A stretch of 8,368 nt of DNA from contig JAJXYU010000285.1 of the NCBI GenBank assembly GCA_021780395.1, positions 1-8,368 of the forward strand. The letters are read 5' to 3'. Both the position numbers and the translations under genes were made by a program. Below are positions 2,256-8,368 of this stretch, piece by piece. Position 1 is the stretch's first letter. Each line of letters starts with the position of its first letter. The notes beneath the pieces were generated by a model that was not told the DNA's origin, did not search any database, and saw only the letters and a program-made list of their open reading frames with translations. This DNA comes from Pseudomonadota bacterium. GTDB lineage: Bacteria; Pseudomonadota; Gammaproteobacteria; Steroidobacterales; Steroidobacteraceae.

Positions 2256-3020
2256 ATGTGCCTGATCCTCGTGGTCTGGCGGGTTCATCCGCAGTATCCG
2301 TGGATCCTCGCCGCGAACCGGGACGAGTACCACCACCGCCCGGCCGCCACCGCACGCTGGTGGGCCGACGACCCGCAGGTTCTCGCCGGCCGGGATCTGC
2401 TCGCCGGCGGGACCTGGCTCGGCGTGAACCGGTCGGGCGGGTTCGCCGCGCTGACGAACTACCGCGGGGCGCCGCTGCGGCCGCCGCCGACCCCGAGCCG
2501 CGGCGAGCTCGTCGCCGGCCTGCTCGGTCGCCGGGCGCCCATCGCCGAGGAACTGCACGCGCTCGAGCGCATCGGCCCGCACTACAACGCGTTCAACCTC
2601 CTGTTCTCGGACGGCGAGCAGCTCGGCGTGCACGAAAGCGAGCGTCGCGCGGGCCGCGTGCTCGAGCCGGGGATCTACGGGCTGTCGAATCACCTGCTCG
2701 ACACGCCCTGGCCGAAGCTGCGCAAGGCGAAGTCACGCCTCGCGGCCGCGCTCGAGGACCTGCCGCGCACGCAACGCATCCTCGACCTGCTGCGCGACGA
2801 GGAACCCGCCGCGGACGAGGAGCTGCCGCGGACCGGCGTGAGCCTCGAGTGGGAACGGCTCCTGTCGAGCGCGTTCATCCGCTCCGCCGAGTACGGCACC
2901 CGCTGCTCGACCGTGATCACGATGAACCGATCGGGAACGATCGATTTCGACGAGTGGACCTGGAACCGCGAGGGGGCGCCGGCGGGCCACGTCGCGTGGC
3001 ACTTCACCGTCGACCGATGA
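2256..3020 (+). CDS. NRDE family protein (bacterial TANGO2 homologue)
   Basis: This 254-residue protein is a full-length member of the NRDE/TANGO2 family. The signature AANRDEYHHRP is at residues 19-29. Other family blocks are GGTWLGVNRSGGFAALTNYR (51-70), SRGELV (81-86), YNAFNLL (110-116), YGLSNHLLDTPWPKL (141-155) and SSAFIRSAEYGTRCSTV (204-220). The Met-Cys start is typical; Cys2 could become N-terminal, as in Ntn hydrolases, which is an idea from the family fold and not shown here. Eukaryotic TANGO2/HRG-9 proteins have been linked to intracellular heme movement; the bacterial role is not settled. No signal peptide or membrane helix is visible, so it is probably cytoplasmic. It starts 7 bp after the CDF stop, which makes a two-gene operon likely and hints at metal or heme homeostasis. 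Its last 17 bp overlap the end of the opposing 4Fe-4S gene. Confidence 0.93.
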   Translation: MCLILVVWRVHPQYPWILAANRDEYHHRPAATARWWADDPQVLAGRDLLAGGTWLGVNRSGGFAALTNYRGAPLRPPPTPSRGELVAGLLGRRAPIAEELHALERIGPHYNAFNLLFSDGEQLGVHESERRAGRVLEPGIYGLSNHLLDTPWPKLRKAKSRLAAALEDLPRTQRILDLLRDEEPAADEELPRTGVSLEWERLLSSAFIRSAEYGTRCSTVITMNRSGTIDFDEWTWNREGAPAGHVAWHFTVDR

Positions 3021-3708
3021 AGGCTCGCATGTGGAACGCCGCGTGGTCGGGCCGGTACGCGTACGCCGTACCGACCGGGCAGCGCCGGCGGGCCTCGCAG
3101 CCTCGCTCGAGGCAGGCCGTTCCCGCGGCCGAACGCACGTGGCTCGCGCAGGCGCCGACCGCGTAAGCGCTGCCGGTGAACGCACCGACCGGGCACGCCC
3201 GCAGGCACGGCTTGTCCGCGCACGCCTCGCACGGACTCGGACGGGGCTCGAGCGTCGGCAACTCGAGGACGTCGCGAAACGCGAGCGCACCGCGATAGGC
3301 GTGCCACAAGCCATAGTCCGGGTGGATCAGCACGCCGAGCGGCGATGCCTGGAGGCGTTCGGCGTGCATCGCCCACTGCTGGAACGGCCACCACGGCGGT
3401 CCTTCGTTCGGGTACACACCGACGGCGCCGTGGCGCTCCCCGAGCGCGTCGATCACCCGGCGCGACCAGCGATCGAGCGGATCGGGACGCCCATCCTCCG
3501 CCTCGGGGGCGCCGAGGAACACGTCCCACTGTCGATCCCCGACGAAGCCGAACAGCACCAGCGTCGCCGGCCGTGCGCCGTCCGGCAACGCGGGCACGAC
3601 ATCCTCGGCCGACGGATGGAATCCGCCTCGACACGCGAGACCGTCGCGTTCCGCGTCGCGCACGAGTGCGGCGTACCGCGTGACCGCGCGTCCCGCGTGC
3701 ATGCTCAT
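3004..3708 (-). CDS. 4Fe-4S protein with CblC/QueG-like N-terminal region
   Basis: This 234-residue protein is probably cytoplasmic. Its C-terminal third carries eight cysteines suited to two [4Fe-4S] clusters: C160, C163, C168 and C172 (CEACADKPCLRACPVGAF), then C187, C199, C204 and C210 (RRRCPVGTA). The layout recalls the tail of epoxyqueuosine reductase QueG, although the first motif is CxxCx4CxxxCP, not CxxCxxCxxxCP. Residues 126-142 contain IHPDYGLWHAYRG, which resembles the HP-x-[FY]-G-x-W-x-x-x-RG segment I recall from the cobalamin-processing protein MMACHC/CblC. The N-terminal two thirds may therefore be a related flavin/corrinoid fold; this is from memory and untested. The start ATG overlaps the stop of the ALDH-like gene (ATGA) and lacks a Shine-Dalgarno, so coupled re-initiation is likely; a second ATG lies two codons later. 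It is the last gene of the operon. It could simply be an electron-transfer protein; substrate and partner are unknown. Confidence 0.8.
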   Translation of the reverse strand: MSMHAGRAVTRYAALVRDAERDGLACRGGFHPSAEDVVPALPDGARPATLVLFGFVGDRQWDVFLGAPEAEDGRPDPLDRWSRRVIDALGERHGAVGVYPNEGPPWWPFQQWAMHAERLQASPLGVLIHPDYGLWHAYRGALAFRDVLELPTLEPRPSPCEACADKPCLRACPVGAFTGSAYAVGACASHVRSAAGTACLERGCEARRRCPVGTAYAYRPDHAAFHMRAFIGRR

Positions 3709-4961
3709 CGACGCGCGGGCGGCGCCGGATCGACCGCGCCGAGCCGCCGCACCGTCGCCGGCCGCCGTGCGAGTTCCGCGGCCAGATCCTGCGCATCCTC
3801 GAACGGCACCAGCGACAGCACCGGCGCACGGAACTCGGCGAGCGCGGCGGGATCGCCGCGCGGGACCTCGGTGAGGATCGTCGGCTGGAAGAAATGACCC
3901 GCCAGTCCCCAGGGCCGGAATCCGCGGCCGCCGAGCTTGAGCTGCGCGCCGGCCTGCAGCGCGCGCGCGACCTGCCCCTCGGCGAGGCGCATTGCGGCGT
4001 GCGAGACCAGGGGGCCGAGATCGGTGTCGGGCTTGCGCGGATCGCCGACCTCGAGGAACGCGACCCGCAGGTGCAACTGGTCGGCGAACTCGGCCGCGAC
4101 GCCGCGGTGCACGTACAGTCGCATGCGCGGCGTCACGCACTGGCCCGAGGCCCGCAACCCCGCCTCCGCCGCCTCCGCCGCCGCGCGCTCGAGATCGGCC
4201 CCTGGGTCGACGACGCCCGCAAGGGTCTCGAGCGCGGCCAGACGGCTCACCTCACCGGTCGCGATCCGCCGCAGCGTCTCGCATTCCTCGGCCGTGCCGT
4301 CGCAGAACAGCCGGTCGACGCCGGTACTCGCGGCCAGGGCCGCGGCGGTCGCCGCGGCGCCGGTGATCACGTTGACCAGGCCCGCGGGCACCGAGGCGAA
4401 CGCGTCCGCGAGCCGCAGGCTCGACAGCGGCGCTTCGACCGGCGGCTTGCAGATCACCGCGCCACCCGCCGCGAGCGCGGTGCCCGCTGCCTCGATGAAC
4501 GCGCCGATCGGGCGATCGAACCCGGCGGCGACCGCGACGACACCCTCGGCGCCCGTGCGGTCGGTTCGGGCGTCCGCCGCCGCCGCGTCCTGCACCGCAC
4601 GCTCTAGCCACTCGAGCGCCGCGGCGATTTCGGCGCGCGTCTCGCGAATCGGTCGTCCCGACTCCTCGGTCAAGGTGCTCGCGAGCGCCTCGCCCGCCGA
4701 GCGCAGCGACGCCGCGACGGCGCCGAGCGCCGCCGCGCGATCGCGCGCGGGGGCCCGCTGCCAGATCGCACGCGCCTCGCGGGCCGCCGCGCAGGCGAGC
4801 GCGACGTCCTCGGCATCGCTCTCGGCGATCTCGGCGAGCACCGTGCACGTGGTGGGATCCTCGACGCGACGCACGGCGCTCGAACGGGACGCGGTCCAGC
4901 GACCGGCGATGAACACCGGATGCGGCGCGCTCGCCGCGGACGAAGCCCCGTCCGCGCTCAC
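3705..4961 (-). CDS. Aldehyde dehydrogenase-like protein lacking catalytic Cys; probable pseudoenzyme
   Basis: This 418-residue protein clearly descends from NAD(P)-dependent aldehyde dehydrogenases. The N-terminus has FIAGRWTASRS (17-27), DPTT (35-38) and ESDAEDVALACAAAREA (47-63); CKPPVEAP (171-178) keeps the cofactor-binding Lys172; VGDPRKPDTDLGPLVS (305-320) and FFQPTIL (357-363) are typical. The active site is not intact. The GQxC loop reads ASGQCVTPRMRLYV (271-284), so Val276 sits where the catalytic Cys belongs and the only nearby Cys is one position early. PWNFP is replaced by AGFDRP (146-151), FTGS by FCDGT (219-223), and the ELGGKSP block by a shortened LETLAG (244-249) that keeps Glu245. 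EIFGPV has become EFRAPV (376-381), and the chain stops about 20 residues later, 60-80 short of usual. The start is GTG, overlapping the metY stop (GTGA); its own stop overlaps the next start (ATGA). The intact frame and normal codon use argue against simple decay. Confidence 0.85.
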   Translation of the reverse strand: MSADGASSAASAPHPVFIAGRWTASRSSAVRRVEDPTTCTVLAEIAESDAEDVALACAAAREARAIWQRAPARDRAAALGAVAASLRSAGEALASTLTEESGRPIRETRAEIAAALEWLERAVQDAAAADARTDRTGAEGVVAVAAGFDRPIGAFIEAAGTALAAGGAVICKPPVEAPLSSLRLADAFASVPAGLVNVITGAAATAAALAASTGVDRLFCDGTAEECETLRRIATGEVSRLAALETLAGVVDPGADLERAAAEAAEAGLRASGQCVTPRMRLYVHRGVAAEFADQLHLRVAFLEVGDPRKPDTDLGPLVSHAAMRLAEGQVARALQAGAQLKLGGRGFRPWGLAGHFFQPTILTEVPRGDPAALAEFRAPVLSLVPFEDAQDLAAELARRPATVRRLGAVDPAPPARR

Positions 4962-6268
4962 AGCGCAGTCAGCGCGCGATCGAGGTCCGCGATCAGGTCC
5001 TCGACGTTCTCGATCCCGATCGACAGTCGAACCGTGTCCTCGGTCACGCCGGCTTGTGCGAGTTCCGCCGGCGACAGTTGCCGGTGGGTCGTCGATGCCG
5101 GATGGGTCGCGAGCGAACGCACGTCACCGATGTTCACGAGGCGCGTGAACAGCCGCAATCCGTCGAGAAAGCGCGCACCCCGTTCCCGGCCGCTGCCCGC
5201 CGGGCCCTTCACGCCGAAAGTGAACAGCCCGGACGCCTTGCCGCCGAAGTACTTCTTCACCAGCGCGTGATCCGGGTGGTCCTCGAGACCGGCGTAGTTC
5301 ACCCACGCCACCTTGTCGTGGGCGCGCAGGTGACGCGCGATCGCGACCGTGTTCGCGCTGATCCGGTCCATGCGCAGCGACAGCGTCTCGATGCCCTGCA
5401 GGATCAGGAACGCATTGAACGGTGAGATCGCCGCACCGGTATTGCGCAACGGCACGACGCGGGCCCGCCCGATGTACGCGGCGGCGCCGAGCGCCTGCGT
5501 GTACACCATGCCGTGATAGCTCGGATCCGGCTCGTTCAAGCGCCGGAACCGCTGCGGATACTGGTGCCAGGGGAACTCACCGGAGTCGACGATCGCACCG
5601 CCGAGGCTCGTGCCGTGACCGCCGAGATACTTGGTCAGCGAGTGCACGACGATGTCCGCGCCGTGCTCGAACGGACGGCACAGGTACGGGGTCGGCACGG
5701 TGTTGTCGACGATCAGCGGCACGCCGTGCTGGTGCGCGACGTCCGCGACCCGCGCGAAATCGGTCACGTTGCCTTGCGGATTCCCGAGCGACTCGACGAA
5801 GACCGCCTTGGTCCGCTCGTCGATCAGCGCCGCGAAGGTCTCCGGCCGCCGATAGTCGGCGAATCGCGTCTGGATCCCGTATTGCGGCAGCGTGTGCGCG
5901 AGCAGATTGTAGGTCCCGCCGTAGAGCGCACTGGAGGCGACGAGGTTGTCGCCCGCCTCGGCGATCGTGAGGATCGCGTAGGTCACCGCCGCCTGCCCCG
6001 ACGCGAGCGCGAGCGCGGCGATCCCCCCCTCGAGCGCGGCGACGCGCTGCTCGAGCACGTCCTGGGTCGGATTCATGATCCGCGTATAGATGTTGCCCGG
6101 CACCTTCAGGTCGAACAGGTCCGCGCCGTGCTGAGCGCTGTCGAACGCGTACGCGACCGTCTGGTAGATCGGAACCGCGACCGCCTTGGTCGAGGGGTCC
6201 GGCGAGTAGCCGCCGTGCACCGCGATCGTATCGAACCGCCAATTTTCCTTGCCGCTGTCGTCAGCCAC
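4958..6268 (-). CDS. metY: O-acetylhomoserine sulfhydrylase (aminocarboxypropyltransferase), PLP-dependent
   Basis: This 436-residue cytoplasmic enzyme of the Cys/Met-metabolism PLP family should condense O-acetylhomoserine with sulfide to give homocysteine and acetate, the direct sulfhydrylation route to methionine. The N-terminus [20 protein letters not shown] (12-31) and VPIYQT (32-37) are typical of MetY. The PLP phosphate contacts are in YTRIMNPT (61-68) and SGQ (90-92). Asp188 in VDNT faces the pyridine nitrogen. Lys213 in [11 protein letters not shown] is the Schiff-base lysine. [15 protein letters not shown] (384-398) holds the substrate carboxylate Arg. Length is normal for MetY and longer than most cystathionine synthases or lyases. 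I chose the GTG at 6268, not an ATG 11 codons upstream, because an AGGGGGAAG ribosome site sits about 7 nt before it and homology begins just after. The start overlaps the upstream small gene by 8 bp. The main alternative is O-succinylhomoserine sulfhydrylase (MetZ), which is usually shorter. Confidence 0.93.
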
Positions 6269-6554
6269 GTTCGCTTCCCCCTGGAGTTTGCGTTGATCCA
6301 TCCGGCGCGCGCGTCAGCGCGACCGCCTCGGCCTGCAGCGCCTTGAACGACTGTTCCCAGTTCCCCGGGCGCGGCTTCGACCAGACCAGCCGTCGGACGA
6401 CCGACTCGAGGCGGCGATTGCGCTCGGCGAGCTCCTCGTAGTCCTCGGCGAGCACGACGCGCACCGGGCGGTCCTGACAGATCCCGAGACACGGCCGATC
6501 GACGTCGATCTTGCCGCACCCGATGCACTGCCAGCCCTTGTAGATCTCGACCAT
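6261..6554 (-). CDS. Small four-cysteine protein of unknown function (97 aa)
   Basis: I do not recognise a named family. The 97-residue product is soluble, with no signal peptide. Its N-terminal third carries two cysteine pairs, CIGC (C10, C13) and CLGIC (C22, C26), within YKGWQCIGCGKIDVDRPC (5-22). The spacing would suit one zinc or iron-sulfur site. Residues 35-82 are rich in Glu, Arg and Leu and look helical (EDYEELAERNRRLESVVRRL, 38-57), perhaps a short coiled coil. The tail (from about 83) is Gly/Pro/Ser-rich and probably disordered. A strong ribosome site, GGAGG, lies 8 nt before the ATG, which supports the start. The gene begins 23 bp after maeB and its stop overlaps the metY start by 8 bp, so it is almost certainly expressed with both. 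The role could be metal binding, redox or a regulatory subunit; nothing in the sequence decides. Confidence 0.82.
   Translation of the reverse strand: MVEIYKGWQCIGCGKIDVDRPCLGICQDRPVRVVLAEDYEELAERNRRLESVVRRLVWSKPRPGNWEQSFKALQAEAVALTRAPDGSTQTPGGSERG
6275..6282 (-). promoter_or_regulatory. Ribosome binding site deciding the GTG start of metY
   Basis: On the minus strand the sequence is AGGGGGAAG, with the G run (6281-6277) ending about 8 nt before the GTG at 6268. The upstream ATG at 6301 has no comparable site. The position favours the GTG start, which gives a MetY N-terminus of normal length. The site lies inside the last codons of the small four-cysteine gene. Confidence 0.75.
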
Positions 6555-6577: not shown

Positions 6578-8368
6578 TCAGGCGGTCGTGGCCACGCTGT
6601 CGCGACCACGATTCGCCTCGACCGCGACGATCGCGGTCGAATTCACGATCCGGCGCACGGTCGCCGCCGCCGTGAGGATGTGCACCGCGCGCGCGCAGCC
6701 GAGCAACATCGGTCCGATCGCGACGTTGTGCCCGGCCGCGGACTTCAGCAGATTGTACGCGATGTTCGCGCTGTCGAGGTTCGGGCAGACGAGCAGGTTC
6801 GCGCTGCCGTGCAAGGTGCTGTCCGGGAGGATCGCGCGGCGCACCGCGTCGTCGAGCGCACAGTCGCCGTGCATCTCGCCATCGACCTCGAGTGCAGGGC
6901 TCCGCGAGCGGATCCGCTCGAGCGCATCGCGCATCTTGACCGCGGAGGTCGCATCGCTGCTGCCGAAGTTCGAGTGCGACAGCAGGGCCACCTTCGGCTC
7001 GAGCCCGAAGGTGCGCAGTTGCGCGACCGCGAGCTCGACGATTTCCGCGAGCTGCTCCGCGCTCGGGTCCACGTTCACGTGGGTGTCGACGAGGAACACC
7101 TGCCGCCCGGGCAGGATCAGGCCGCACATCGCCCCGTACCCGCCGACGCCCGGGCGCAATCCGATCACCTGATCGATGTAGTGCAGGTGACGCGCGGTCG
7201 TGCTGATCGTCCCGCAGATCATCGCATCGGCTTCGCCCATGCGCAGCAGCATCGCCGCGATCAGCGTGGTCCGCCGTCGCATCTCGAGCTTCGCGTACTG
7301 CGCGGTCACGCCCCGCCGGCTCGTCAGGCGATGATATGCCTGCCAGTAGTCCCGATAGCGGGCGTCGTTCTCCGGGTTCACTACGGCCACGTCCTCGCCG
7401 ATCCGGATGCGCAGGCCGTAGCGCTTGATGCTGCGCTCGATCACCGCGGGTCGGCCGATCAGTGTCGGCACCGCCAGGCGCTCGTCCACGACGATCTGCA
7501 CCGCCCGCAGCACGCGCTCGTCCTCGCCTTCGGCGTAGACGACGCGCTTGCGCGGCGGGTCGAGCTTGCGGGCCGCGGAGAACAGCGGCTGCATCAAGGT
7601 GCCGCTGTGGTACACGAATTGCTGCAGCCGCTGCGCGTACGCGTCGAGGTCCTCGATCCGCCGGGTCGCGACCCCCGAGCTCATCGCCGCACGGGCGACC
7701 GCTGGCGCGATCTTCACGATCAGGCGCGGGTCGAAGGGCTTGGGGATCAGGTACTCCGGACCGAACCCGAGTTCGCCCCCTTCCGAGTACGCGCTGGTCA
7801 CCACGTCGCTCTGCTCCCGCCGCGCCAGATCGGCGATCGCGTGCACGGCCGCGATCTCCATCGGTCGCGTGATCGCCGTCGCACCGACGTCGAGCGCCCC
7901 CCGGAAGATGAACGGAAAGCACAGCACGTTGTTGACCTGGTTCGGGTAATCGCTCCGTCCGGTCGCGATGATCGCATCGTCGCGCACCGCGCGAACCTCC
8001 TCCGGCAGGATCTCCGGTGTCGGATTCGCGAGCGCGAAGATCAGCGGCTTCGCCGCCATCCGGGCGACCATCGCGGGCTTCAGCACACCGCCCGCGGAGA
8101 GACCGAGGAACGCATCCGCGCCGCCGATCAGGTCATCGAGCGTGCGTGCGTCCGTCGGTTGCGCGAAACGCTCCTTCTGCGGATCCATGAGCTCCCGGCG
8201 CCCCGCATACACGACCCCGGCGAGGTCGCTCAGCCAGACGTTCTCCCGCCGCAGCCCGAGATCGAGCAGCAGCTCGACGCAGGAGAGCGCGGCGGCACCC
8301 GCCCCGCTCACGACGAGCTTGATCGCGTCGATCGACTTGCCGACGATCTGCAGACCGTTCAGCAGTGC
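6578..8368 (-). CDS. maeB: NADP-dependent malic enzyme fused to phosphotransacetylase domain (N-terminus outside window)
   Basis: This is the C-terminal 596 residues of a MaeB-type malic enzyme, which oxidatively decarboxylates malate to pyruvate and CO2 with NADP+. Numbered from the window edge, residues 1-255 are the cofactor half of the malic enzyme domain: GAGAAAL (22-28) is the dinucleotide loop, FALANPTPE (111-119) and GRSDYPNQVNN (137-147) are family signatures, and FPFIFRGALDVGA (151-163) is typical. From about residue 273 (RKRVVYAEGEDERVLRA) to the end lies a phosphotransacetylase-like domain, with VGGYGAMCGL, HSNFGSS and GPMLLGC. In E. coli MaeB this domain is thought to bind acetyl-CoA as an allosteric signal rather than catalyse. 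E. coli MaeB has about 759 residues, so about 160 are missing upstream, including the first substrate-binding part. It heads the visible leftward operon; the next gene begins 23 bp on. Confidence 0.96.
   Translation of the reverse strand, partial: ALLNGLQIVGKSIDAIKLVVSGAGAAALSCVELLLDLGLRRENVWLSDLAGVVYAGRRELMDPQKERFAQPTDARTLDDLIGGADAFLGLSAGGVLKPAMVARMAAKPLIFALANPTPEILPEEVRAVRDDAIIATGRSDYPNQVNNVLCFPFIFRGALDVGATAITRPMEIAAVHAIADLARREQSDVVTSAYSEGGELGFGPEYLIPKPFDPRLIVKIAPAVARAAMSSGVATRRIEDLDAYAQRLQQFVYHSGTLMQPLFSAARKLDPPRKRVVYAEGEDERVLRAVQIVVDERLAVPTLIGRPAVIERSIKRYGLRIRIGEDVAVVNPENDARYRDYWQAYHRLTSRRGVTAQYAKLEMRRRTTLIAAMLLRMGEADAMICGTISTTARHLHYIDQVIGLRPGVGGYGAMCGLILPGRQVFLVDTHVNVDPSAEQLAEIVELAVAQLRTFGLEPKVALLSHSNFGSSDATSAVKMRDALERIRSRSPALEVDGEMHGDCALDDAVRRAILPDSTLHGSANLLVCPNLDSANIAYNLLKSAAGHNVAIGPMLLGCARAVHILTAAATVRRIVNSTAIVAVEANRGRDSVATTA

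Follow-up and report, generated by a model that had tools for sequence, protein, structure and literature searches.

An aldehyde dehydrogenase-like protein family, probably non-enzymatic, encoded beside an Fe-S protein gene in the Steroidobacteraceae

The 8,368-nt stretch of Steroidobacteraceae DNA analyzed here, referred to as the window, encodes an aldehyde dehydrogenase (ALDH)-like protein which, to judge from its residues, is very probably catalytically dead, and which has probably been kept for a function other than catalysis. Because catalytic parts have been lost in several ways in different species while the gene has been kept under selection and tied to a gene for a vitamin-B12-type Fe-S protein, the product is probably a non-enzymatic partner protein. 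The fuller proposal, advanced with modest confidence, is that selection has kept the dead ALDH as a binding partner or scaffold of its coupled neighbor, an Fe-S protein of the MMACHC/QueG fold belonging to corrinoid methyl transfer. The losses, a conserved segment at residues 286–370, the gene overlap and the co-occurrence with other genes were all computed directly. The initial annotation had singled out an apparent codon swap at the catalytic site; the swapped codon itself is incidental, and the loss throughout a clade is the more interesting finding.

The ALDH-like gene of the window

The features considered are as follows.

3004..3708, minus strand: partner gene, a 234-aa protein of the MMACHC/QueG fold with a C-terminal Cys-rich 4Fe-4S-type region
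3705..3708, minus strand: ATGA overlap in the sequence, the start of the Fe-S gene on the stop of the ALDH-like gene (candidate start 4 nt inside the ALDH end in 9/11 genomes)
3705..4961, minus strand: ORF of the putative ALDH-fold pseudoenzyme, 418 aa, GTG start, TGA stop
3852..4106, minus strand: constrained segment, residues 286–370, from invariant sites, pN and entropy; holds W351 (codon 3911–3909)
4131..4145, minus strand: G273-Q274-C275-V276-T277, Val at the catalytic Cys302 position, from the sequence and alignment to solved ALDHs
4236..4238, minus strand: A242 at the general-base Glu268 position, from the alignment column, less sure because of a gap close by
4515..4517, minus strand: D149 (GFDRP for PWNFP) at the position of the oxyanion-hole Asn169, from the alignment column; this Asn is gone in 29/29 clade rows
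4958..4961, minus strand: GTGA overlap, the start of the ALDH-like gene on the stop of the upstream O-acetylhomoserine (OAH) sulfhydrylase gene, from ORF coordinates
4958..6301, minus strand: O-acetylhomoserine sulfhydrylase, upstream (TIGR01326, 642.7 bits, cut-off 495.1)
6261..6554, minus strand: small conserved Cys-containing protein, 97 aa, with GWQCIGCGKIDVDRPC; upstream in G000, G016, G022, G013, G009 and G002
6578..8368, minus strand: malic enzyme-phosphotransacetylase fusion, cut by the window end (NF009501, 970.9 bits, missing the cut-off of 1178 with an incomplete gene; PF01515, 301.5 bits)

The minus strand from 4145 to 4131 reads GGC CAG TGC GTG ACG, giving GQCVT at residues 273–277. 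In phmmer alignments the stretch gqcvtprmrlyvh pairs gaplessly with GQVCTCNERMYVH (6j75), GQTCVCANRLYVQ (3jz4) and GQVCTNGTRVFIH (2xdr), so Val276 sits at the nucleophile position and Cys275 one residue earlier. Over the 50 nt around the site the window is matched exactly by a second assembly of this species (G000; 4 mismatches across 4767 nt in total), which makes a read error there unlikely. The codons and the placement of Val at the Cys302 position thus stand as the initial annotation gave them, and together with the invariance of C275 in related proteins the second assembly leads to the rejection of a private mutation or read error. That assembly is broken inside the ALDH-like gene (end of contig C15, start of C140, at about window position 4767), and the window spans the break.

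The protein matches the ALDH superfamily profile (PF00171) and has the ALDH fold. Its NAD-binding turn aligns as CDGTA, not FTGS; just 14 of about 53 residues are left of the C-terminal catalytic and oligomerization region, with the profile match stopping at 385 of 461; and residues of the Lys192 and Glu399 types are kept in their alignment columns. The Glu268 column has Ala242 in the window and E in some clade rows, with a gap close by in the alignment. A shift of the loop that would rescue Cys275 appears unlikely, given D149 for Asn169, A242 for Glu268 (where the alignment is less sure) and the loss of the FTGST turn. The earlier suggestion that the enzyme is dead is thus very probably right, with the Cys, Asn169, the NAD turn and the C-terminal part gone. 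The protein falls under the cut-off for all 25 NCBIfam models shown, so a substrate cannot be assigned. In a scan of genome contigs for this protein, 80 loci among the matches listed are all ALDHs, at no more than 36% identity.

A clade of degraded ALDHs

At E ≤ 1e-3 a protein search, with candidates capped at 7994, yielded at least 92 homologues, and at E ≤ 1e-60 a profile search yielded 78. From both searches and the genome loci, 102 sequences were picked for alignment, and 98 rows entered the tree, leaving out the fragments P0009 and P0028–P0030. The tree is long-branched, with a root for drawing only. It places the window protein inside a clade of 29 rows (SH-aLRT 99), or about 24 distinct sequences, five being present as both a P and an L row.

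Across these 29 rows the oxyanion Asn169 is gone in all, the FTGS turn is found in none, and Cys302 is gone in 25. The residues at the Cys302 position are V in seven rows, A in five, G and C in four each, Y in three, S and E in two each, and F and T in one each. The four rows that keep the Cys (P0011, P0012 with its twin L111, and P0021) have also lost Asn169 and FTGS. At most 31 of the approximately 53 C-terminal residues are left in 27 rows, L153 and L187 being the exceptions. Glu268 varies across the clade, the alignment at that column being unsure. A tail of the WFPY..R type, as in intact enzymes, is kept in many members (P0011–P0030) despite a deletion just before it, and is absent from the window's subclade.

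Within that subclade, complete members are 414–418 aa long; G273, Q274 and C275 are invariant in all seven non-redundant rows, and residue 276 is V throughout, other than the E of P0008 and of L113 (G022), which is nearly identical to it. Outside the subclade, relatives carry GQAT, GQAC, GQNC, GQSS, GQIG or GQTY. In seven genomes of the genus in which the Fe-S gene adjoins, the catalytic position is V (G000, G016), E (G022), C (G013), S (G002), G (G009) or Y (G005). Val is therefore not fixed among genomes with the same locus, a point that the initial annotation had proposed to check by alignment of homologues, and what looks like a swap with Cys275 is confined to a single subclade. A transposition of the Val and Cys codons, its suggested cause, is not supported by the nine different residues at this position in the clade or the range of motifs outside the subclade.

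Intact relatives of the aminoaldehyde/betaine-aldehyde type (L141–L148 and L116) fall in the same tree, at about 40% identity to the window protein and with the same conserved segment. Unlike the clade, they have GQVC, Asn169, Glu268 and FTGS with an untruncated C-terminus, whose FPYR tail recurs in several clade members. An activity on aminoaldehydes is guessed from their profile scores and a neighboring DAO-type oxidoreductase. With intact relatives in existence, the clade-wide loss of the oxyanion Asn, the FTGS turn, mostly the Cys and usually most of the C-terminal part indicates a family of pseudoenzymes.

The intact enzymes on the other side of the tree, which retain GQVC, Asn and Glu and a complete C-terminus, include those of eight genomes of genus g38 and two (G010, G017) of the window's genus, g1. 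On this side there are also partly degraded forms (P0214–P0219), with the Cys retained in 6/6 and the C-terminal part short in 5/6, and one more Cys-less row (P0024). Genus g38 has a second degraded ALDH group (L149–L152 and L154, in G076, G155, G105, G091 and G160), in which a GR.C motif is retained, Asn169 is replaced by S or T in 5/5 and Glu268 is altered in 3/5. In the first four of these genomes another ALDH-like ORF lies within about 3 kb of the gene, and no Fe-S gene was found in the genomic stretches of this group that were examined.

The Fe-S protein gene and its neighborhood

A fold search places the Fe-S protein in the MMACHC/QueG fold. Its score with PF16690 (MMACHC), 18.8 bits, misses the cut-off of 27, and when the Fe-S profile was run against PDB sequences the matches were two weak ones, to ferredoxin-like regions. 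The family is large, 5696 of 6783 candidates being homologues at E ≤ 1e-3; none of the 120 homologues listed has a precomputed Pfam domain, and they are named as ferredoxin, 4Fe-4S dicluster protein or hypothetical protein.

Neighborhoods were compared for clade members located in genomes, as distinct from those known as database proteins alone. In all nine clade genomes found independently of the Fe-S gene (G000, G016, G022, G013, G009, G002, G005, G102 and G183), the ALDH-like gene is directly upstream of it on the same strand, and likewise in two more that were found through it (G073, G084). The candidate 4-nt start-stop overlap of the pair occurs in 9 of these 11 genomes, in three genera. 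The window's 418-aa ORF has 4-nt overlaps at both ends, bearing out the earlier description of an intact frame in a coupled operon.

A longer order is shared by five genomes: malic enzyme, small protein, ALDH-like gene and Fe-S gene, then TANGO2 and a CDF transporter in convergent orientation. The OAH sulfhydrylase gene precedes the ALDH-like gene only in G000, G016 and G022; the order in G013 and G002 is without it, and tblastn found none in the loci of G013, G009 and G002. G005 has the downstream half of the order up to a contig end, and in G009 the small protein, ALDH-like and Fe-S genes alone were found. No functional link to the pair was found for TANGO2, the CDF transporter or malic enzyme, and the small protein has no Pfam match in its C-terminal 74 aa.

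Within genus g1, 8 of 23 genomes have the Fe-S gene, seven with a clade gene and one (G017) with an adjoining intact sister. This sister, L119, is intact but divergent; L116 and L141–L148 (9/9) have no Fe-S gene within the 8–12 kb around them. In the family sample, 15 of 27 Fe-S loci have no ALDH-like ORF within a flank of about 1.5 kb.

Co-occurrence with corrinoid methyl-transfer genes

The family sample consisted of 200 genomes, 27 of them with the Fe-S gene. A clade member, intact sister or member of the second degraded group (the ALDH set) was found in at least 26, including G073 and G084, detected by way of the Fe-S gene alone; since the best eight candidates per genome were scored, ALDH counts are lower bounds. 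On that basis 23 genomes have both the Fe-S gene and the ALDH set, four the Fe-S gene alone, three the ALDH set alone and 170 neither, or 21, 6, 3 and 170 without G073 and G084.

MttB is present in 27/27 genomes with the Fe-S gene, against 108/200 overall (p = 1e-8 if genomes were independent). Genome counts are not independent of phylogeny; at genus level, all six genera with the Fe-S gene are among the 11 of 25 with MttB (p = 0.003). The RamA-type domain PF14574 is found in 26/27 against 99/200, missing in G175, and DUF1638 in 24/27 against 89/200, missing in G009, G063 and G179, which are 81–87% complete. Up to seven MttB-type genes were scored per genome in the 200 family genomes, and within 8 kb on contig C42 of G000 there are an MttB gene, DUF1638 and a RamA-type gene. 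Sampling of 396 genomes across the order found the Fe-S gene outside the family in one alone (G280), with no ALDH adjoining.

In G073, MttB, the dead ALDH and the Fe-S gene are consecutive on one strand; in G044, the Fe-S gene is preceded by genes for a hydantoinase-type protein and a BCCT (betaine/carnitine/choline) transporter, with MttB 3.4 kb off on the other strand; and in G102 an OYE-type flavin oxidoreductase precedes the ALDH/Fe-S pair. No MttB was found among the window genes scanned. RamA-like and DUF1638 proteins have been proposed, in the portions of PMC12478193 and PMC5764234 drawn on here, to reactivate B12 in such systems.

Evolutionary constraint

By Nei-Gojobori counting, the ALDH-like gene has a dN/dS of 0.41 against G016 and 0.43 against G022, and the five other genes compared have values of 0.09–0.28. 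It is thus the fastest-evolving of the six, which would also fit relaxed selection on the way to loss. Constraint is uneven along the protein: pN is 0.05–0.09 in residues 286–370 and 0.14–0.24 elsewhere, and in seven rows of the subclade 58/85 sites of this segment are invariant against 142/333 elsewhere (Fisher p = 3e-5). The corresponding values in 11 of the 61 intact rows are 29/85 and 118/310 (p = 0.53). As the row sets were hand-chosen and of unequal depth, these p-values are guides.

Entropy was compared between 23 clade rows (the distinct ones minus L118, which is close to P0022) and 23 drawn from the 61 intact ones. In every 20-residue interval the clade is the more variable, except in 301–320 (0.52 against 0.85) and 341–360 (0.49 against 0.57). 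Trp351 is present in 29/29 clade rows and 0/23 intact ones, 13 of which have Ser; E304 is found in 23/23 clade rows against 4/23, and A301 in 23/23 against 10/23.

In 11 clade genomes there is no stop inside the sequenced part of the gene, which is cut by a contig end in G005 and G084. Single stops flagged by whole-genome searches in five clade matches (G013, G016, G022, G000 and G009) sit at the match edge, either before the gene start or at its own end. With dN/dS of 0.41–0.43, residues 301–320 more conserved than in intact enzymes and Trp351 fixed in the clade, the gene is not simply rotting. Low dN/dS, uneven constraint and clade-fixed residues form the pattern of a protein that has lost one task and kept or gained another; the clade shows the loss of catalytic motifs under continued purifying selection that marks a pseudoenzyme. 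The selection data also fit the retained non-dehydrogenase role suggested by the initial annotation.

Possible roles of the ALDH-like protein

Slow decay is an unlikely explanation. On this account the gene is becoming a pseudogene, surviving solely because translation passes through its open frame into the coupled Fe-S gene; the 4-nt overlap would keep both the frame and the 3' end, and the highest dN/dS of six genes, a catalytic position that holds nine different residues across the 29 rows and missing C-terminal parts are all as expected. However, dN/dS is well under 1, complete members of the subclade hold to 414–418 aa, the pair is open in three genera, and the constrained segment is internal, away from the overlap, with 301–320 more conserved than in the intact enzymes. 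The same segment contains GDP-x4-TDLGPL, a stretch that presumably lies near the cofactor in ALDHs, and with the fold retained the protein could be a non-catalytic sensor that binds an aldehyde, acid or nucleotide and reports to the Fe-S protein. The absence of the FTGS turn from all 29 rows makes this quite improbable.

Least probable of all is that Cys275 has replaced Cys302 as nucleophile in the window's subclade, for some other chemistry such as the handling of thioesters or persulphides. Catalytic residues are known to have migrated in other pseudoenzymes (the sections of PMC10211241 used here), the Lys192- and Glu399-type residues remain in the window protein, and C275 is invariant in 7/7 non-redundant rows while residue 276 varies; yet 48% of sites are invariant in this small set, so one invariant Cys is weak evidence. 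Asn169 and FTGST are gone, moreover, and sister lineages with the same Fe-S neighbor have no Cys at either place (GQSS, GQIG, GQTY).

A partner protein is the reading preferred here. The ALDH fold would no longer oxidize aldehydes, its nucleophile, oxyanion Asn, NAD-binding turn and part of the oligomerization domain being gone; it would bind, or serve as a scaffold for, the Fe-S protein encoded downstream and coupled to it in translation; the latter would be a cobalamin-type (MMACHC/QueG-fold) member of a corrinoid methyl-transfer system; and selection would retain the ALDH-like gene through that role. Death of the enzyme, as far as sequences can tell, appears strongly supported and retention is well supported, while the partner role is a fair inference. 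That the non-catalytic function acts through the neighboring Fe-S protein, by physical contact, is about an even call, and the corrinoid role of that protein is a lead. The four clade rows that keep the Cys, the top dN/dS and an Fe-S family far wider than the pair count against the proposal. A more detailed version, rather doubtful as it stands, is that a bacterial ALDH, once its gene had come to adjoin the Fe-S gene, was converted into a dedicated non-enzymatic subunit of a B12 complex serving MttB-type demethylation, with residues 286–370 and Trp351 as the contact surface, a bacterial analogue of MMACHC-MMADHC with a different fold.

Comparison with known systems

In the human MMACHC-MMADHC B12 pair the helper differs; here an ALDH fold stands beside a candidate cobalamin-type protein. 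Some PutA proteins keep a non-catalytic ALDH-superfamily C-terminal domain for assembly. There the ALDH-like domain is part of a bifunctional enzyme, whereas here it is a separate gene, and the likeness is one of description. Human ALDH16A1 is larger than the window protein. It is described in the relevant part of PMC10650815 as a pseudoenzyme of the ALDH fold that lacks the catalytic triad and is believed to work via protein contacts; it too is likened by description, and no B12-type Fe-S partner is mentioned in that part of the source.

The MttB, RamA-type and DUF1638 genes that accompany the Fe-S gene recall the MtgBCD/RamA/DUF1638 corrinoid methyltransferase system, as outlined in sections of PMC12478193 and PMC5764234. 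The main text of PMC12478193 has no mention of ferredoxin, iron-sulfur, aldehyde dehydrogenase or MMACHC, and the ferredoxin-domain protein tied to B12 reactivation in the pertinent section of PMC5764234 is the RamA-like one, other than the Fe-S protein here.

A search of the open-access full-text literature found no bacterial stand-alone ALDH pseudoenzyme of this type in the titles and abstract openings of the papers listed. The ALDH pseudoenzyme named in the portions of reviews consulted is human ALDH16A1; the present clade is bacterial. For annotation, its proteins should not carry the name aldehyde dehydrogenase. The findings also draw attention to a family of Fe-S proteins, of B12-type fold, whose genes occur together with those for corrinoid demethylation. 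Intact, half-degraded and dead relatives in related genera, the dead ones with an adjoining partner gene, allow the change from enzyme to partner protein to be traced and tested.
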